A stretch of 64,000 nucleotides of DNA from Yinghuangia seranimata (GTDB lineage: Bacteria; Actinomycetota; Actinomycetes; Streptomycetales; Streptomycetaceae): the NCBI RefSeq assembly GCF_029953285.1, contig NZ_JASAOI010000027.1:1-64000 (forward strand), written 5' to 3'. Positions 27,342 through 35,805 of the stretch are shown here, in pieces. Position 1 is the first letter of the stretch. The number at the start of each line of letters is the position of its first letter. Both the position numbers and the translations under genes were made by a program. The notes beneath the pieces were generated by a model, which saw only the letters and a program-made list of their open reading frames with translations, searched no databases and was not told the DNA's origin.

Positions 27342-28271
27342 TTGGTCGACAAATGCACACCGACGTGCGCCGGCGTACGGCCGGAAAACGCGGGTCGTGG
27401 GTACGGAAGCGCGCGCGGTGTGGTTGGGGGTGCGACGGGTGGTGCGTGCGGAGGGTCGACGGGTGGTGCGTGCGCGGGGTCGACGGGTGAGGCAGGCTGG
27501 TACCCCGCGAGGTGGGTCTCCGACGTGGGTCTCCGGCGGGCGTCGGTAGGGGCGGTGGTTGCGGTGCGTGTGGTGCGACGTGGTCTGACCGGTACGGACC
27601 GGGTGCCTCGGGCGCGGCGTGAGATGCGTGGGGCGCGGCGTGAGATGCGTGGCGGGAAAGCGTTCGGCGCCTTCGCCTATCAGCCGCCGGGGGAGGCGCC
27701 TGTCGGTGGGGTTCGCGGCCACATGCTCGGCACTGTGACGCGCGCGCTTGCTGCGTCCGGGTATCCGCGTGCTGAGGCCGACGCTCTGTTGTTTTCGCTG
27801 CGCGACGCGGTGCTCGGGGACGACGCGGACCGCGACGCTGCCGCGGATGTCCTGGGCGGGGTGCCCGCGCGGACGTTGGTCGATCTCGACGAGCTCTCGC
27901 GGTCGGGTTCCGTCGAGGCGCTCGGCGGGCTCCGGGAGCGGCGTGCGCTGCTTCGGCGGACGGATCATCCGGCTGTCGCCGCGTTGTCGGGCATGGACGA
28001 GAACGGCGGACTGCGTGAGGAGGCCGTCGTCCGGCTCGCCGCGCGGCCCGGGCCGCTGGCTGCGGCCGTCCTCGCGCTGCGTACCGACGACTGGGTGGAA
28101 CCGGTGCGGCGGCGGGCCCGGATCGCGCTCATGTGGCGGATGGAGGCGGAGGAGGCGGCGGTGATCCTGCCGCTGCTTGAGCTTCGACGGGGCCGTTCCC
28201 GCGCTTCGGGCGTCCTCGATGTGTACCGCGAGGCGTGTCGGGGTGACGGGCCCCGGCTGCACCGTTCCTGA
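27342..28271 (+). pseudogene. HEAT-like repeat protein, probably truncated by a repeat element
   Basis: The open frame spans 309 codons but only the C-terminal part looks like a protein. From the ATG at 27723 onwards (MLGTVTRALAASGYPRAEAD) it resembles actinobacterial HEAT-like proteins, with GLREEAVVRLAARPGPLAAA and LALRTDDWVEPVRRRARIAL. The first ~110 codons read as Gly/Arg-rich low-complexity sequence, and third-position bias is weaker there. The last residues RLHRS and the stop codon lie within the left flank of repeat element A (28257 on). I infer that the gene was shortened when the element arrived, and that what remains may not be functional. A genuine short gene is possible. Confidence 0.5.
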
Positions 28272-28560
28272 CCTGGTTTGTGGTTTTGGCCTGACGCCCC
28301 TCCCGCTCTTGGATTTTCCGCGCGGACGGCCCGCGCCTCAAGCCGATCCTGCCAACGCTTGGTCTGGTGGCCTGGTTCGGTTGCGGCTTGACCTGCGGGC
28401 CGTCCGCGCTGAACCACCTCGTACCTGGCGGGAGGGGCGCGGGGTGTGGACGCGCTTGTTTGGTTTCCCTGCCGGGCTGCGGTTTCGCTTGGGGTTCCGG
28501 GCGGGTTTTGTTGCTTGGTTTTGTTGCGCTGCCGGGGGTCGTTCCAGCGTGGGGCCGCGC
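28257..28560 (+). repeat. Structured palindromic repeat element, copy A
   Basis: The outer inverted repeat is 11 bp (28295-28305 with 28429-28439, perfect). The inner inverted repeat is 26 bp (28320-28345 with 28384-28409, 23 matches). The left flank begins CTGCACCGTTCCTGACCTG at 28257. The right flank has GCGCGGGGTGTGGACGCGC after the palindrome, GCCGGGCTGCGG at 28471 and CCAGCGTGGGG at 28544. The same order of blocks occurs in copies B and C. It fills the gap between the HEAT-like gene and the rhomboid-like gene. No open frame in it is convincing. Confidence 0.85.
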
Positions 28561-28655
28561 TTGTCCGACTCGGTCGGGGGCGCGGCCTCGACCCCCCATC
28601 ACTTTGCCGTCACGTATGCGAATCACCAGAACTCCCTCATTGGGGGGTGTTCGCG

Positions 28656-29372
28656 TCACACTTGCGTCACTCGTGTTCTGGTGAGGACCGGCCACCACAG
28701 GATGCCTACTGCCAGGGCGAACGGGTGGCCGAAGGCGGCTACCGGGTCGTCCAGTTCGAGGACGTCGGGGATCAGGGTGGCGGCGATGAGCGCCAGGCCG
28801 AGCAGCCTGTGTCGGAGTGTGAGCAGGCCCATGAGGGCGCCTGCCGTCGCGTAGAGGCCGAAGCTCACGCCGACGTCGACGCGGTGGGCCGAGTCGTCCG
28901 GGAGGTGGTTGAAGCCCACCATGGCGGCGATGGGGAGTTCGGTGGCGAGGGTCGCGGCGATGTGGCCGGAGGCGAAGACCATGAGCAGGCGCCGGCCGCC
29001 GACGCGGCGTTCGAGCGGGGCGAGGATCAGGCTGAACTGGACGGCGTAGAGCGTCCACAGTCCGCCGGCCGTCCACAGCGCGCTCGCGATCAGGACGCGG
29101 AGCGGGCTGTGCGTCAGGTGGTACGCGTCGGTGCTGGACCCGGAGACCAGTCGCTCGACGGTGTCCTCGGGCAGCATCCGCCGCAGCTGGGTGGTGACCA
29201 GCAGGACCGCGAGGTACCAGAACGTCACCGGCGTGCGCCGGGGGTGCGGTAGGACGGCCGCCGCGCGTCGGAGTGCCGTGGTTGCGGCGGCCGTGGTCGC
29301 GGCGAGTGCCGCTGTGCGGGTGTGCGCCGGCGGGTGTGCCGGCCGTGTGTCGGTGCCCGTGACTGTGGTCAC
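28656..29372 (-). CDS. Rhomboid-like membrane protein
   Basis: 238 residues from a GTG at 29372 with GGGAGGGG upstream. After an Ala/Thr-rich N-terminus, about six hydrophobic helices are visible. VDVGVSFGLYATAGALMG (helix with the rhomboid-like serine) and the closing FGHPFALAVGILWWPVL are the family landmarks. In active rhomboid proteases the Ser is in GxSG and a His lies in the last helix; here the first motif is GVSFG, so activity is uncertain. It is divergent from a TetR regulator, with palindromes between them that suggest control by that regulator. Confidence 0.78.
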   Translation of the reverse strand: MTTVTGTDTRPAHPPAHTRTAALAATTAAATTALRRAAAVLPHPRRTPVTFWYLAVLLVTTQLRRMLPEDTVERLVSGSSTDAYHLTHSPLRVLIASALWTAGGLWTLYAVQFSLILAPLERRVGGRRLLMVFASGHIAATLATELPIAAMVGFNHLPDDSAHRVDVGVSFGLYATAGALMGLLTLRHRLLGLALIAATLIPDVLELDDPVAAFGHPFALAVGILWWPVLTRTRVTQV

Positions 29373-29386
29373 TGTGCGCCCCTCCC

Positions 29387-29459
29387 GTGCCAACGGTCGT
29401 AGGCCAACAACCGTTGGCACGAGTCTGCACCCGGTTTTATGGCGGGTCAACACGTGTTG
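29387..29459. promoter_or_regulatory. Operator palindromes between rhomboid-like and TetR genes
   Basis: An 11 bp perfect inverted repeat GTGCCAACGGT (29387-29397) / ACCGTTGGCAC (29410-29420) contains a smaller one, GCCAAC/GTTGGC (29403-29418). A second palindrome, CAACACGTGTTG, is at 29448-29459, close to the TetR start. All share CCAAC/GTTGG half sites, as expected for a TetR-family dimer repressing both genes. Confidence 0.7.
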
Positions 29460-29475
29460 GCCTACGCTTGTTGAG

Positions 29476-30108
29476 ATGAGAAGGACGTCACAGGACACGA
29501 AGTGCGCCATCCTCGCCGCCGCGCGCGAGCGCTTCGCGACCGACGGCTTCGAGCGTGCGACGATCCGGGCCATCGCCGCCGACGCGGGGATCGACCCGGC
29601 CATGGTCATGCGCTACTTCGGCAGCAAGGACAAGCTCTTCGCGGCCGCCGCCGAGTTCGACCTCGGGCTGCCCGGCCTGTCCGCCCTGCCTCCCGAGACC
29701 CTCGGCCGTGTGCTCGCCGAGCACTTCACGCGGCGCTGGGAGGACGACGAGGCCTTCATGGTGCTGCTGCGCACCAGCGTCACGAACGAGGAGGCCGCCG
29801 AGCGGCTGCGGGTCATCTCCCGGGAGAAGCTCTGCCCGATCGTCACGGCCGTGTGCCCCGACGCCGCGCAGGCGCAGCGTCGGGCCGGCCTGCTCGTCTC
29901 GCAGGTGCTCGGGTTCGCGCTGTGCCGCTACATCCTGCGCATCGGACCGGTCGTGGACATGACCCGCGACGAGGTCGTCGCGTGGCTCGCCCCCGCGCTG
30001 CAGCGCTGCCTCACCGGGCCGCTGGACGGCGCCTGGTCGCCGGAGTCGGTGTCGCCGGACTCGGTGGCGGCGCCGATGTGCGCGCCCGAGGCGGTCGCGG
30101 CCGGATAG
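29476..30108 (+). CDS. TetR family transcriptional regulator
   Basis: 210 residues from ATG 29476. The N-terminal helix-turn-helix is clear: AILAAARERFATDGFERATI, then RAIAADAGIDPAMVMRYFGS, followed by KDKLFAAA. The C-terminal half is an all-helical ligand/dimer domain with no recognisable ligand signature. There is almost no ribosome-binding site, so the transcript may be leaderless. It is divergent from the rhomboid-like gene and ends 4 bp before the converging Fur-type gene. It probably represses its own promoter and the rhomboid-like gene through the palindromes at 29387-29459. Confidence 0.9.
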   Translation: MRRTSQDTKCAILAAARERFATDGFERATIRAIAADAGIDPAMVMRYFGSKDKLFAAAAEFDLGLPGLSALPPETLGRVLAEHFTRRWEDDEAFMVLLRTSVTNEEAAERLRVISREKLCPIVTAVCPDAAQAQRRAGLLVSQVLGFALCRYILRIGPVVDMTRDEVVAWLAPALQRCLTGPLDGAWSPESVSPDSVAAPMCAPEAVAAG

Positions 30109-30112
30109 CGCG

Positions 30113-30529
30113 TCAGGCCTTGGCCTGGCAGTCGGGGCACAGCCCCCGGTAGGTGATCTCGACGTCCGAGATCCGGAACCCGAAGCAGTCGCCGGAGGGC
30201 GGGGCGTCGGTCGTCTCGTCCGCCGGAACATCGCGGATCGTCCGGCAGTTCGTGCACACCAGGTGGTGGTGCCGGTGGCGCGCGTTGGGGTCGTACCGCT
30301 TGGCGCGGCCGTCCGTGCTGACCTCGAGGACCTCACCGAGCGCGACGAGTTCGCCCAGCGTGTTGTAGACGGTCGCGCGGCTGATCTCGGGGAGCAGCCG
30401 GCCCGCGCGCTCGTGCACCTCGTCGGCGGTGAGGTGGACGTGGTCGCCGTTCAGGACCTCGGCCACGACGCGGCGCTGCGCGGTGAGCCGCCATCCCCGG
30501 TCGCGGAGTCGTTCCAGAAGGTCGCTCAT
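30113..30529 (-). CDS. Fur family regulator (peroxide-responsive type)
   Basis: 138 residues, Fur family length. The winged helix contains RLTAQRRVVAEVL and EISRATVYNTLGELVALGEV. The metal-binding region has RHRHHHLVC and two CxxC pairs (C92/C95 and C131/C134) for structural zinc. It is divergent from a catalase gene across 133 bp that holds a palindromic box, the arrangement of CatR-CatA and FurA-KatG systems. It should repress catalase until metal-catalysed oxidation releases it. The assignment to the peroxide-sensing branch is from context. Confidence 0.9.
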   Translation of the reverse strand: MSDLLERLRDRGWRLTAQRRVVAEVLNGDHVHLTADEVHERAGRLLPEISRATVYNTLGELVALGEVLEVSTDGRAKRYDPNARHRHHHLVCTNCRTIRDVPADETTDAPPSGDCFGFRISDVEITYRGLCPDCQAKA

Positions 30530-30555
30530 GCGGGGAAGGGTACACCCGCGCCAGT

Positions 30556-30601
30556 CTTAGAACTAGTCTAAGTATTGAGCTAGACAAAATCTAAGTTCGG
30601 A
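30556..30601. promoter_or_regulatory. Fur/PerR-type operator between regulator and catalase
   Basis: CTTAGAACTAGTCTAAG at 30556-30572 has 6 bp perfect arms (CTTAGA/TCTAAG). A second, weaker copy (CTAGACAAAATCTAAG) follows at about 30580-30595. The AT-rich character stands out sharply. It resembles the inverted repeats bound by CatR/FurA-type repressors. Confidence 0.78.
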
Positions 30602-30662
30602 TCTAGTTTGGCGATCGTTCCGCTGGCCGGGGGAGGTCCCCCGGGGTCCGAAGGGGAGAACA

Positions 30663-32132
30663 ATGACCGACCGCAACGCCTCGCGCGCCACCCTCACCAC
30701 CGAGTCCGGCGCCCCCGTCGCCGACAACCAGAACTCCGCGCAGGCCGGCGTCGGCGGCCCGCTGCTGCTCCAGGACCAGTACCTGCTGGAGAAGCTCGCG
30801 CGGTTCAACCGCGAGCGCATCCCGGAGCGGATCGTGCATGCGCGCGGCTCGGGCGCGTACGGCTACTTCGAGGTGACGGCCGACGTCACGCGCTTCACCA
30901 AGGCCCACTTCCTGGCCGAACCGGGGCGCCGCACCGAGGTGTTCGCGCGGTTCTCGACGGTGGCGGGCAACCTGGGCGCGGCGGACGCGGTGCGCGACCC
31001 GCGCGGGTTCGCCGTGAAGTTCTACACCGAGCAGGGCAACTACGACCTGGTCGGCAACAACACGCCGGTGTTCTTCATCAAGGACCCGCTGAAGTTCCCG
31101 GACTTCATCCACACGCAGAAGCGCGACCCGTACACGGGCGTGCAGGAGGCCGACAACGTCTGGGACTTCTGGTCCCTGTCGCCCGAGGCCACGCACCAGG
31201 TGACGTGGCTGTTCGGCGACCGCGGCATCCCCGCGTCGTACCGGCACATGAACGGCTACGGCTCGCACACCTACCAGTGGGTCAACGCCCAGGGCGAGGC
31301 GTTCTGGGTGAAGTACCACTTCAAGACCGACCAGGGCATCCGGAACCTGACCGCCGAGGACGCCGCAGCGCTCGCCGGCGCCGACCCCGACTCCCACCAG
31401 CGCGACCTCCACCAGGCCGTCGACGCGGGCCGGTTCCCGTCGTGGACGCTCAAGGTGCAGCTCATGCCGGTGGCGGACGCGGCCACGTACCGCTTCAACC
31501 CGTTCGACCTGACCAAGGTGTGGCCGCAGGCCGACTACCCGCTCATCGAGGTGGGCCGGCTCGTGCTCGACCGCAACCCGGAGAACGTGTTCGCGGAGGT
31601 CGAGCAGGCCGCGTTCTCGCCGAACAACTTCGTTCCGGGCATCGGTCCGTCGCCCGACAAGATGCTCCAGGGACGGCTGTTCGCCTACGCGGACGCGCAC
31701 CGGTACCGCCTGGGCGTCAACCACACCCAGCTGGCGGTCAACGCCCCGCACGCCACAGCCGCGAACAACCACGGCCGCGACGGCGCGATGGCGACCAACG
31801 CCGCGGGGCGCGCGAAGAACTACGAGCCGAACAGCTTCGGCGGCCCGTACGAGACCGGTGAGCCGGTCTTCGCGCCCGGCCAGGTGTCGGGTCGGACCGG
31901 CACGTTCGCCGCCCCCGCGCACGTGGAGGACGACGACTTCGTGCAGGCCGGCAACCTCTATCGGCTCATGGGCGAAGACGAGCGCGCCCGCCTGATCGCC
32001 AACCTGGCGGGCTTCGTCGCCCAGGTCTCACGCGACGACATCGTCGACCGCGCGATCGCCAACTTCCGTGCCGCGGACGCCGATTACGGCGACCGGCTGG
32101 AGGCCGCGGTCAAGGCCCTGCGGACCGGCTGA
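30663..32132 (+). CDS. Monofunctional heme catalase
   Basis: 489 residues, the small-subunit clade length. Catalytic H59 is in [12 protein letters not shown], the distal Asn is in VGNNTPVFF (near residue 132), and the proximal heme ligand Y342 is in [14 protein letters not shown]. It converts hydrogen peroxide to water and oxygen in the cytoplasm. GGGGAG sits just upstream of the ATG. It is divergent from the Fur-type regulator and is very probably under its control. A strong hairpin follows. Confidence 0.97.
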
Positions 32133-32143
32133 GCCCCGTGATC

Positions 32144-32183
32144 CGGTGGCCGGCCGGCGCCCTCGAGACCCGGCCGGCCACCG
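32144..32183. terminator. Bidirectional terminator-like hairpin
   Basis: A perfect 14 bp stem (CGGTGGCCGGCCGG at 32144-32157 with 32170-32183) and a 12 nt loop lie between the convergent catalase and CBS genes. Confidence 0.82.
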
Positions 32184-32186
32184 CAG

Positions 32187-32588
32187 TCATCCCACCAGTT
32201 CCGCGGCCCTGGCCTGCTCCTGCAGCGTGCAGCGCACGATGTCGCGGACCGAGATGATGCCGACCACGTCGTCCCGGTCGAGGACGACGAGGTGCCGGAA
32301 GTTGCCGCGGGTCATGGCGGCGGCGGCGTCCTGGAGGGTCCAGTGCGGCGTCGCGAACACGACGTTCGACGTCAGGTGGTCGGCCGCGATCTCACGGTCG
32401 GGGTCCTGTTCGGACCCCAGCGAGACGAGGATGTCCCGTTCGGTCAGGATGCCGATCCCGCTGGTGTCGGGATCGATGACGACGGCGGCGCCGATCTGCC
32501 GGGCTGCCATGAGCCGGGCGGCGTCGCGCAGGGTGTGGGTCGGGCCGATGGTCAGGACGACCGTGCTCATGCCGTCGCGTACGAGCAT
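32187..32588 (-). CDS. CBS domain pair protein
   Basis: 133 residues from ATG 32588, with GTGGAGGTGG upstream; a slightly longer frame lacks such a site. Two tandem CBS domains make up the whole protein: AARLMAARQIGAAVVIDPD with GILTERDIL, and AAAAMTRGNFRHLVVLDRDD with GIISVRDIV. CBS pairs bind adenosine nucleotides and sense energy state. With no fused domain, its partner is unknown. It lies downstream of hisN on the same strand, but a 200 bp gap makes co-transcription doubtful. Confidence 0.9.
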   Translation of the reverse strand: MLVRDGMSTVVLTIGPTHTLRDAARLMAARQIGAAVVIDPDTSGIGILTERDILVSLGSEQDPDREIAADHLTSNVVFATPHWTLQDAAAAMTRGNFRHLVVLDRDDVVGIISVRDIVRCTLQEQARAAELVG

Positions 32589-32789
32589 GGTGCACCACCT
32601 CCACAAGGGGGTCGGGCCGGCGCCCGTGAGCCGGGTACGCGCCCTCGACGGCCCTGGAGACCCTTGAGAACGCGTTCACAAGTTCACAAGCGGATGCATT
32701 CTTATGGTCACACGGCCCTACCGACTGGCGAAAGCTTTGTCGGGATTTACCGAGAATTTCTTGCTATCGGAGTGGTTGGCTGACGCGGA

Positions 32790-33578
32790 TCAGGCGGGCT
32801 GCGTCAGGTACCCGAGCAGGTCCTCGTGCAGCAGGCCGTTGGAGGCCGCCGCGTCACCCTCGGCGGGGCTCGGAATCCCGGACAGCGACGTGAACTTGCC
32901 GCCCGCCTCGGTCACGATCACCGACAGCGCCGCCAGGTCCCACAGGTTGACCTCGGGCTCCGCGCACATGTCCACCGCGCCCTCGGCGACCAGCATGTAC
33001 GACCAGAAGTCGCCGTACGCCCGGCTGCGCCACACCGCGCGCGTCAGGTCGAGCATGTTGTCCAGCGCGCCCCGGTCCTCCCAGCCGCCCAGGCTCGAGT
33101 ACGAGAACGACGCGTCCTCGACGCTCGCGACCTTCGACACGTGGATCCGCGACGCCTGCGACAGGCTGCGGCCGGTGAACGCGCCCGCGCCCTTCGAGGC
33201 CCACCAGCGGCGGCCCAGCGCCGGCGCCGACACCAGGCCCACGACGACCTCGTCGCCGTCCATCAGCGCGATCAGCGTCGCCCAGACCGGGACGCCGCGC
33301 ACGAAGTTCTTGGTGCCGTCGATCGGGTCGATCACCCAGCGGCGCGGGCCGTGGCCCGTCGCGCCGTACTCCTCGCCGAGCACCGCGTCGCGCGGCCTGG
33401 CACGGCCCAGCTGCGCGCGGATCAGCTCCTCGGCGGCCTTGTCCGCGTCGCTCACCGGCGTCATGTCCGGCTTGGTCTCGATCTTCAGGTCGAGCGCCTT
33501 GAAGCGGTCGAGCGTGGTCGCGTCGGCGGCGTCCGCGAGGACGTGGGCGAGGCGCAGGTCGTCGTCGTAGCCGGGCAT
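32790..33578 (-). CDS. hisN: Histidinol-phosphatase (inositol monophosphatase family)
   Basis: 262 residues from ATG 33578. Metal-binding motifs of the IMPase fold are present: GEEYGATG, WVIDPIDGTKNFVRGVPVW, and WDLAAL near the C-terminus. The start PGYDDDLRLAHVLADAADA and LKIETKPDMTPVSDADKAAE match actinobacterial HisN. It dephosphorylates histidinol phosphate in histidine biosynthesis. In Streptomyces this gene lies close to rsgA-aroA, as it does here apart from an accessory insertion of about 7 kb. Confidence 0.92.
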   Translation of the reverse strand: MPGYDDDLRLAHVLADAADATTLDRFKALDLKIETKPDMTPVSDADKAAEELIRAQLGRARPRDAVLGEEYGATGHGPRRWVIDPIDGTKNFVRGVPVWATLIALMDGDEVVVGLVSAPALGRRWWASKGAGAFTGRSLSQASRIHVSKVASVEDASFSYSSLGGWEDRGALDNMLDLTRAVWRSRAYGDFWSYMLVAEGAVDMCAEPEVNLWDLAALSVIVTEAGGKFTSLSGIPSPAEGDAAASNGLLHEDLLGYLTQPA

Positions 33579-33750
33579 GGCGCGAACACTAGCCGCTCCG
33601 GGGCGGGCGCTGCCACGCGGGCACGGGGTGGCGTGGGGGCGCACCGGGGGCGGTCGGCCGACCGGCGCCCTTTCGCGGCGTCCGTGACGCCTCGTACGCT
33701 TCGGGTGCACTCGGGTGTGCAGCGTGACGGCGGAAGGGGTCGGGGCCTCG

Positions 33751-34494
33751 ATGGCACTGTTCGGGGTCGGGCGCGGGCGTGCGCGCGACAAGGAAGCGTT
33801 CCAGGTGCCGGCGCTGGTGGCCCCGCGCCGCAGTCTCGACGGCTGGACGCTGGACGGCACAACGCTCGCGGCCCGGTTCGCCGGTGAGGACCTGCGCGAG
33901 CTCGGCACTCTCCTGCACGGCGTGAGCGCGGGGATGGACACCCCGTGGACCTACGAACGCGCCGCCGACCTGCTCGAACGCGGCGGCGAACGCCCCCAGG
34001 CCCTCGCGGTCCTGGAAGCCTGGTTCGCCCTTCCCTCGGCCGTACGGGACGCCCACCCCGTGCAGACGAAGACCCTCGGCCGCCGCCGCCAGCGGCTCCG
34101 TAAGCGCCTCGGCGCGATCCCGGAGCCCTCGACCAGCCCCGAGTCCCCGTCGGTCACGAGCGCTGTGCCGAGCGGGCCCACGCCGCCGAAGCAGGCCACC
34201 GCGTCGCCGGAGCCCGCCCCGGCGCCTGCCGCCGAGCCCGCGGTTCCGCCGAAGCCGACGACGACCCCTCCGGCGCCGACCGCGAAGCCGGATCCCGAAT
34301 CGGCCCCGGCGATCCCTGCAAAGCCCGCCGAACCGCTGGCGGCCACGCTGCCGCCGCTTCCGCCCCTGCCACCGCTTCCGCCCCTCCCCGCCACCCCGCC
34401 GCCTGCGGCGGACGCGACCGACGACGGGAAGGCGTCGGACGACGACGGGAAGGCGCCGGACGCCAGCGAGGACGAGAGCACGTCCGAGGACTGA
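33751..34494 (+). CDS. Hypothetical protein with proline-rich C-terminal tail
   Basis: 247 residues from ATG 33751, chosen because GGAAGGGG lies 10 nt upstream; an in-frame GTG at 33724 is an alternative. Residues 1-125 look folded, with a TPR-like helical segment (YERAADLLERGGERPQALAV, then LEAWFALPS) and a basic TKTLGRRRQRLRKRLGAI. The remaining half is Pro/Ala/Thr-rich with a PLPPLPPLPPLP run and an acidic end. No signal peptide is seen. I do not recognise the family. The next 1.3 kb is non-coding repeats. Confidence 0.6.
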   Translation: MALFGVGRGRARDKEAFQVPALVAPRRSLDGWTLDGTTLAARFAGEDLRELGTLLHGVSAGMDTPWTYERAADLLERGGERPQALAVLEAWFALPSAVRDAHPVQTKTLGRRRQRLRKRLGAIPEPSTSPESPSVTSAVPSGPTPPKQATASPEPAPAPAAEPAVPPKPTTTPPAPTAKPDPESAPAIPAKPAEPLAATLPPLPPLPPLPPLPATPPPAADATDDGKASDDDGKAPDASEDESTSED

Positions 34495-34706
34495 GCGACG
34501 GCGCGCCCGCGACCGCTGCGTCGGGCCCGGTGGCGCGGATGAGGTCGCGGACCGTCTGGCTGAAAGCCGTTGCCGGCCTTCCGGCCGGCCCAAGGCCGTT
34601 GCCGGACTCAGGCGTTGATCGGGCCCGTGCTCTCGCGTAGCGAGCGGGCCGCCCGGCCGTCGAAGGCGGCCAAGGCCTCGGCTGTTGCGGCGTGGCCGTC
34701 GAAGAC

Positions 34707-34959
34707 CTGCACCGTCCCGGACCTGCACGCTGGCGGTGGCCACCTCCCCCTCCCGATTTGTGATTGTCCGCGCGGCCGGTCGCCTGTCAAGGCGCGGTGG
34801 ATCAGTCGTCAACAGGCGGCCTGTCGCGTGCCGGGGAGGCGCCTTGACAGCCGCCCGGCCGCGCTAAAACCTCGGCAACTATCGGGAGGGGGAGGCGGTG
34901 TGGAGCCGCATCGGGTGCGCTGCGTCGCCGGGCTGCGGTCCCAGCGTGGGGCGGGCGGC
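34707..34959 (+). repeat. Structured palindromic repeat element, copy B
   Basis: The outer inverted repeat is 15 bp and perfect (34743-34757, CCTCCCCCTCCCGAT, with 34881-34895). The inner inverted repeat is 26 bp (34770-34795 with 34839-34864, 24 matches) and contains CTGTCAAG/CTTGACAG. The left flank begins CTGCACCGTCCCGG at 34707. The right flank includes GCCGGGCTGCGGTCCCAGCG from 34927. It has the same orientation as copy A and is inverted relative to copy C, which starts ~200 bp away. Confidence 0.88.
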
Positions 34960-35160
34960 CACCTTTGACGACCGGTGACCGGGCTTCACAGTTCTCATAT
35001 CGCACCAAAATCGGGCATTGAGGCGCCGAATCCCTTATTGGCTTTGCGTCAAAAGAACCAAATGGCCACATGTTGCCATCTGGTTCTTTTGAAAACCGTT
35101 GTCAGTGAGAGATGAGAGGTCGGCGACCGCAGCCCGGCAGCGCGGCACACTCGGCGTGAA
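34960..35160. other. AT-richer spacer between inverted repeat elements B and C
   Basis: About 200 bp with a far lower GC content than the window. It contains TTCTCATATCGCACCAAAAT-type sequence and a strong hairpin at 35051-35090. No gene is visible. A partial extra copy of the flank motif (GCAGCCCGGC at 35130-35139) suggests that element C extends into its right side. Confidence 0.6.
35051..35090. terminator. Strong hairpin with A/T tails
   Basis: AAAAGAACCA at 35051-35060 pairs with TGGTTCTTTT at 35081-35090; the stem continues through ATGGC/GCCAT after one mismatch, with an 8 nt loop. It looks like a bidirectional intrinsic terminator but has no gene next to it on either side. Confidence 0.7.
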
Positions 35161-35418
35161 GCCGCGCCGCCCACCACGCTGGGACCGCAGCCCGGCACGA
35201 CCAACGCGACCAAAGCGCCTTCACACCCCGCGCCCCTCCCGATAGCTGCCGGGTTGTCTGCGCGGACGGGCGGCTGTCAAGCCGCCCCCACCAGCGCGCG
35301 ACAGGCCGCCTGTTCGTAGGAGATCCACCGCGGCTTGACAGCCGTTCGGCCGCGCGGACCATCAAAAATCGGGAGGGGCGCCAGGACACCGCCACCAGCC
35401 AGGCCGGGAACGGTGCAT
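35161..35418 (-). repeat. Structured palindromic repeat element, copy C (inverted)
   Basis: The outer inverted repeat is 14 bp and perfect (35230-35243, GCGCCCCTCCCGAT, with 35368-35381). The inner repeat is 26 bp (35260-35285 with 35330-35355, 23 matches). Read on the minus strand, it begins ATGCACCGTTCCCGG (35418-35404). After the palindrome it has GCGCGGGGTGTGAAGGCGC and GCCGGGCTGCGGTCCCAGCG, ending at 35161. Block order and spacing match copies A and B. Confidence 0.88.
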
Positions 35419-35423
35419 GCCAG

Positions 35424-35514
35424 GCGCAGTCCATGCCGCAGCCCATCGGCCCGATCCCGGTGCGGCCACGCGCAGTCCATGCCGCAGCCCATCGGCCCGC
35501 AGCCCATCGGCCCG
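35424..35514 (+). repeat. Direct repeats next to element C
   Basis: A 30 bp unit beginning GCGCAGTCCATGCCGCAGCC is present at 35424-35453 and exactly again at 35470-35499. A third partial copy (GCAGCCCATCGGCCCG) ends at 35514. It directly abuts the outer edge of element C. Confidence 0.85.
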
Positions 35515-35805
35515 AAGCCCTGTTCGGTGACCGGTCTGATGAGCACCGCGGGCCGCGACTGTTCGAGCTGGCGCAGCGCCGTGGCCCAGGCATCGCACCT
35601 GCCCCGGTGAACCTCGTGTGCGTGTGGGCAGTGGCGAGGGTGCGGTGCCCGGCGGCCGGGATTCCACCCGTCTGACGCCCCGCTCGCCGGCACATAGTTG
35701 CCCCGTACACGCTCTTGACGGCCGCACCCGACCGGGACAATCCTGGTTGACACCAAGCCTCCACGTGTAAAGCACAGACCGCCGGTCCGTCCCCGAGGGG
35801 AGCAC
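35515..35805 (+). promoter_or_regulatory. Upstream region of the TetR gene at 35806
   Basis: About 290 bp without a credible gene. The last part contains TGGTTGACACCAAGCC near 35744 (TTGACA-like -35 hexamer at 35747-35752) and ends with the ribosome-binding site CGAGGGGA before the GTG. No clear palindromic operator was found. Confidence 0.4.

Follow-up and report, generated by a model that had tools for sequence, protein, structure and literature searches.

The first 64,000 nucleotides of contig NZ_JASAOI010000027.1 of Yinghuangia seranimata (hereafter, the window) carry a palindromic repeat whose hairpins are built of two nested stems. A first-pass annotation of this DNA had described three copies, A, B and C, of a dispersed repeat family, and all three lie at the positions it gave. 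They are not three separate copies, however: B and C form the two inverted ends of a single element (~34658-35515), one of 26 such pairs genome-wide, whereas A is a different form that extends to ~28671; both points had been overlooked.

The A-type element (28257..28671, + strand, ~415 bp) runs from the left end CTGCACCGTTCC through the hairpin and a GCCGGGCTGCGG...CCAGCGTGG box to a module of ~75-80 bp, termed X (GTGACGCAAGTGTGACGC...GTGATTCGCATACGTGACGGCA; 28590..28671, - strand), which the alignment of single-arm loci identifies as the right end of A-type elements. Its hairpin core (28295..28439, + strand; outer stem 28295-28306 / 28428-28439, inner stem 28316-28345 / 28384-28413) scored 125.6 bits with the core covariance model described below. 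The inverted-pair element (34658..35515) begins with an outer module (TTGCGGCGTGG...; 34658..34706, + strand) that still falls within the family similarity, followed by the B arm (34707..34959, + strand; outer stem 34743-34757 / 34881-34895, inner stem 34770-34795 / 34839-34864; 169.9 bits) with its right box GCCGGGCTGCGGTCCCAGCGTGG at 34927-34949 on the same strand. The centre (34960..35160) is lower in G+C (48% at 35000-35099) and contains a near-perfect palindrome of 44 bp at 35049-35092. The C arm follows in inverted orientation (35161..35418, - strand; outer stem 35230-35243 / 35368-35381, inner stem 35256-35285 / 35330-35359; right box 35174-35196, - strand; 171.5 bits), and to its right lie outer modules with short tandem copies (GCAGTCCATGCCGCAGCCCATCGGCCCG; 35419..35515, - strand).

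Some details of the earlier description required adjustment. Its perfect outer inverted repeats of 15 and 14 bp hold for B and C, but that of A measures 12 bp instead of 11; the inner inverted repeat of 26 bp applies to B (26 nt at 92%), whereas those of A and C are longer (30 nt at 87%). Among the motifs, A reads CCTCAAG / CTTGACC in place of CTGTCAAG / CTTGACAG, and B reads GAGGCGGTGTGG in place of GCGCGGGGTGTG. When arms A and B were folded singly as RNA, A gave a z-score of -2.65, with 1 of 100 shuffles equally good, and B gave -3.75 on the + strand and -6.18 on the - strand, with none of 200 shuffles equally good on either. Folded as single-stranded DNA, the 712-base stretch spanning both B and C forms mostly one long arm-against-arm hairpin (z -24.6, 20 shuffles).

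Copy number, end types and genomic sites

The proposal of a dispersed, many-copy family was borne out by searches of the 9.8-Mb genome. A 23-base motif with up to three mismatches gave 67 matches, against 3 for the reversed control, and blastn with B gave 41 strong matches (40 of 229 first-look candidates scored). The core covariance model R1, built on 71 arms with 42 base pairs, returned 145 matches among 150 scored candidates. By hand count, 101 of these are arms scoring above 100 bits and 39 are echoes of the same palindromes on the opposite strand; the other 5 are weaker and either partial or deviant. The list of 101 arms was compiled by hand and checked for duplicates, and it may be a lower bound because 150 candidates were scored. 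Fifty-two of these arms stand in the 26 inverted neighbour pairs, spaced at ~470-620 bp in 23 cases, ~295 bp in two and 1565 bp in one, and the remaining 49 stand alone or are truncated at contig ends. By hand count, 18 of the 101 are no more than 600 bp away from the end of a contig, so that the family interrupts assemblies. Six contigs (C25, C38, C39, C69, C98 and C33) hold 38 of the arms, with one or two on some much longer contigs; the arm-rich contigs are possibly chromosome arms.

The usual unit measures 0.7-0.9 kb and consists of two inverted arms of 250-300 bp, each with a hairpin of ~150 nt, around a centre of ~0.2 kb that has its own palindrome. We typed the 95 arms of the analysed loci by their outer stem, obtaining 32 B, 25 A, 22 D, 15 C and one untyped. 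The 26 pairs comprise 10 BC, 11 BD (one including the arm left untyped by the script, assigned to B by position), 3 DD and 2 A-B composites, with no BB, CC or CD. With the two A-B pairs left out, 4.5 BB pairs would be expected, and none occurred in only 2 of 20,000 shuffled pairings. As the end types pair non-randomly, we take the pairs to be elements with two defined ends. The two arms of a BC or BD pair are 68-81% identical, and the left arm's best match elsewhere mostly reaches 83-96%; as terminal inverted repeats, the arms are therefore imperfect in BC and BD pairs, and those of DD pairs match at 86-97%. The centres are richer in A+T, fall into several types and occur in both orientations among copies. 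Family similarity continues for ~100 bp beyond the arms, where a further inverted repeat (GTGCGAGCC / GGCTCGCAC) was seen by eye in some copies.

The A-type element, by contrast, has two unlike ends and no terminal inverted repeats. Aligning 26 single-arm loci, among those listed, delimited it as 400-450 bp from CTGCACCGTTCC to the X module (75-80 bp), which stands inverted on the right side of 23 of the 25 A arms, outside 7 of the 32 B arms, beside none of the 22 D arms and at one C-typed arm (L107). It is because X forms the right end of this form that copy A of the window spans ~28257-28671. At two loci (L094 and L102), the right box of the A-type element occurs in short tandem copies. At three others, foreign DNA starts within the centre of the element, at CCTATT|G or directly beside it: L006 (end of contig C23) and L033 (end of contig C67) appear to represent the two sides of a single insertion, whose partial open reading frame (ORF) matches DDE_Tnp_4 (7.1e-9), and L005 (start of contig C7) has a different insertion at this position.

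Of the 70 arm clusters, none is crossed by a called gene, and the surroundings of the copies are unrelated. Where both neighbours were called, they are convergent around 11 of 22 pairs and around 13 of 27 singles, compared with 9 of the window's 48 gaps. Among the 43 singles whose upstream neighbour was called, 29 have the 3' end of that gene facing the arm; the notion that single copies always stand behind a stop codon was rejected, as 14 of the 43 have no facing 3' end. Single arms between tandem genes run with the upstream gene in four cases and against it in five, although copy A of the window is probably misassigned among the five, the caller having missed the ORF at 27342-28271, and 4 and 4 would be equally fair. 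Five single arms lie between divergent genes. From the convergent excess and the balanced tandem counts, we conclude that the sites are biased towards 3' ends without a clear orientation rule. The last codons and stop of the missed ORF fall within element A (CTGCACCGTTCCTGA), so that the insertion probably replaced the 3' end of that gene.

Support for insertion came from a sister genome, G001 (apparently Yinghuangia soli), of which 2.06 Mb, about a fifth of 9.7 Mb, was compared with 70 loci of the present genome; two loci had both flanks there. A search for empty sites, as the first-pass annotation had suggested, gave one clean case, L009, where the same two neighbour genes are separated by 127 bp between alignable parts in G001 versus 1025 bp here. 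The inserted stretch is ~856 bp by eye, with an uncertain left border.

In the same 2.06 Mb of G001, we found neither arms nor a comparable intergenic repeat. The core model matched none of 30 relatives at 1e-6 (2 of the same genus, 16 more of the family and 12 of the order), and 80 other genomes of the family, searched with stricter filters and 34 scored candidates per genome, yielded one weak lone match. This hairpin (L248:2094-2257), in a genome of another genus (G056), has the same two-stem plan, reaches 58.5 bits with R1 and shares GTCAAG/CTTGAC and CGGCAGCT-TCGGG, and its score equals that of the opposite-strand echoes of true arms. It occurs as a single copy in its own genome, is absent from 9 other genomes of that genus group, and may be a distant relative or a chance resemblance. 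The exact pattern had no match in the genome_contigs and viral_contigs collections, from which the organism's own or near records were possibly left out, and plasmid and phage collections gave no match; the literature searched contained nothing on this repeat family. By these sequence searches, the hairpin family is nearly restricted to this genome.

Elements carrying an AbiEi-like gene

Two D-D elements, on contigs C75 (L093) and C36 (L092, which is truncated where the contig ends), each carry an intact ORF between their arms. The ORFs encode 326 and 328 amino acids, lie at the same place in the same sense and are 73% identical. Arms and ORF align over 1233 bp at 77% between the two elements, and outside them only short scraps align; because the arms and ORF match and the surroundings do not, the ORF-bearing element is a unit present at two unrelated sites. 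Within the two elements, the arms share 96.9% (290 bp) and 98.5% (133 bp) identity, and between the elements 84-85%. For the ORF pair, we obtained dN 0.20 and dS 0.85 (NG86; dN/dS 0.24), or 0.17 and 2.04 by YN00, and the gene is under purifying selection.

The products match the PADLOC profiles of AbiEi, the antitoxin of type IV AbiE toxin-antitoxin systems, at 5.9e-14 and 5.9e-18, and Pfam AbiEi_4 at 1.9e-5, which just passes the cut-off, and 2e-4, which does not; they have no relative in the PDB and no NCBIfam family. Unlike in AbiE systems, no AbiEii toxin gene stands beside the AbiEi-like ORF between the element arms, and the element protein differs from AbiEi in its possible Vsr-like nuclease end and its location inside an inverted-arm element. 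The only other paralogue in the genome is 36% identical and lacks arms, and a general link of AbiEi-like proteins to palindromes was rejected, since homologues elsewhere also stand without arms.

AbiEi proteins have been described as binding inverted repeats (PMC7319586), which makes the ORF product a plausible, putative binder of the arms; a nuclease action of the same protein would be speculative. We consider the AbiEi-like protein of 326-328 amino acids a candidate mobiliser, although its being a driver of the elements rather than a passenger is a tentative idea that we regard with some doubt. As no ORF remnants were found at the other element loci, it is from the shared arms and centre palindromes that the short copies can be read as deletion products of such elements.

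Probable mobile DNA and competing explanations

The first-pass annotation had suggested that structure rather than sequence is kept, with compensatory changes between copies. Both stems indeed stay paired across differing copies, but the wording was too strong, as roughly half of the paired columns show little variation. Among 71 arms, 91.2% of pair cells are paired versus 84.1% in shuffles, and double changes affect 10 of 42 pairs and 156 cells versus 7.5 and 65 in shuffles; in a slid-register control, no shift had more than 54 cells with double changes. Further pair types did not exceed shuffles (15 versus 15.4, with 436 of 500 shuffles as high), which goes against structure. On trees, we counted 11 (tree from all columns) or 18 (non-stem columns) pair-keeping double changes and 13-14 single changes that keep the pair, compared with 66-73 steps into or out of a mismatch. 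Compensatory pairing therefore exceeds expectation, but mismatch steps outnumber double changes. Neither of the two outcomes that the first-pass annotation had named as refuting it, a lack of further copies or a lack of compensatory pairing, was observed.

Many of the double changes coincide with sub-families, which could mean that entire stem-loops were swapped as modules or that one hairpin strand served as the template for the other. This agrees with an explanation in which the repeats are static and old, spread by recombination and gene conversion without transposition, with modular hairpins swapped as blocks. The mosaic of modules (X, Y, centre types and apical loops) would follow naturally, and the higher arm identity within than between the ORF-bearing elements points to homogenisation of the arms. 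By contrast, the absence of the family from the examined sister sequence and from all searched genomes but one, the unrelated surroundings and the clean empty site at L009 make a purely static origin unlikely. Within the apical loop (for example, window 34800-34835), the left side is much more variable than the remaining hairpin, and its variants recur across copies.

The maintained pairing, the over-represented convergent neighbours and the 3' ends facing most single arms would also suit a structured RNA or 3'-end element, such as a bidirectional terminator or mRNA stabiliser, copied because it is useful behind genes. We judge this rather improbable: single arms in tandem contexts run almost equally with and against the upstream gene, others lie between divergent genes, no site is conserved in relatives, and no Rfam 15 family reached its gathering score in window 27900-35800. 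In addition, G-T accounts for only 44 of 2967 pair cells, a scarcity that is unusual for RNA and easier to explain for DNA hairpins, although this is suggestive only. The structured-RNA option of the first-pass annotation accordingly finds little place here.

That annotation's other options, non-autonomous mobile elements or a family akin to repetitive extragenic palindromes (REPs) and bacterial interspersed mosaic elements (BIMEs), agree with the layout of many copies and inverted doublets, but not as regards membership of the REP/RAYT group. In REPs, BIMEs and REPINs (hairpin-forming REP doublets) proper, a RAYT transposase (Y1, HUH) spreads the palindromes by acting on hairpins of single-stranded DNA, and the present family resembles them in its ~100 intergenic copies, folding inverted doublets, modular mosaics, solo forms beside doublets and insertion sequences in the centre, REP doublets and their targeting by insertion sequences having been described (PMC3116915, PMC1525189). 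This origin is nonetheless very unlikely, because PF01797 had no match at E 0.001 in the genome (assembly 97.98% complete) and matched in 5 of 14 control genomes, and because the nested two-stem hairpins of ~150 nt in 250-300 bp arms are several times longer than REPs of 20-40 bp (PMC3733652). The fixed pairing of end types and the nearly single-genome distribution are further differences. An insertion element of the IS200/IS605 type was rejected by the same lack of a Y1 transposase in the genome (PF01797, E 0.001).

Collectively, we favour a lineage-specific mobile DNA family, similar to REPINs or to miniature inverted-repeat transposable elements (MITEs) and not acting as RNA, as the probable explanation. 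In this model, short mobile DNA elements would have proliferated within the lineage leading to this single species. The two arms are a fixed pair of ends, with B on one side and C or D on the other, and the shorter A form keeps one arm and ends in the X module. The elements may be moved in trans by a protein that recognises DNA hairpins or inverted repeats, and the short copies may be internally deleted relatives of the ORF-bearing ones. Like MITEs, the elements are short, non-coding and numerous, with inverted arms and rarer ORF-bearing relatives that share them; unlike MITEs, they have far longer, internally palindromic arms, unlike ends in the A-type form, no demonstrated terminal target duplication and an ORF that is no known transposase. 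BOX and RUP repeats of pneumococcus are also modular, structured, intergenic and restricted in distribution, and we know of no end-type pairing in them. In a bolder version, the present elements would represent a new kind of element, in which an AbiEi-like protein with a Vsr-like nuclease end, rather than a transposase, cuts at the hairpin arms, spreads non-autonomous pairs and re-copies arm onto arm; we hold this to be improbable.

Several observations weigh against mobility of this kind. The empty site at L009 is the only clean one, with 2 of 70 loci comparable in the sister sequence; L015 was rejected as a second because its left neighbour gene differs there, and at the B-C pair of the window the sister carries ~1 kb of different sequence. 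Neither target-site duplications nor exact termini could be established, the flanks being read by eye and the element ends varying, and the gene calls came from a simple codon-based caller. No transposase is tied to the hairpin family, the ORF matching AbiEi and no known transposase, and the Vsr-like C end has a Pfam E-value of 0.21 in one copy and none in the other, with its motif seen by eye. Homologues of the ORF occur in 62 of 149 other genomes of the family at 28-44% identity, with long inverted arms at none of 19 inspected loci.

The best-studied dispersed palindromic repeats are those accompanied by a RAYT transposase, and here ~100 arms occur in an actinobacterium in which no such enzyme was found. 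The long two-stem arms, the strict pairing of ends and the two copies with a conserved antitoxin-like gene distinguish this family. If that gene does drive the spread, it would represent a novel means of movement for small elements; if it does not, the family would still provide a clean, recent and nearly single-species case of how hairpin repeats multiply and stay paired.

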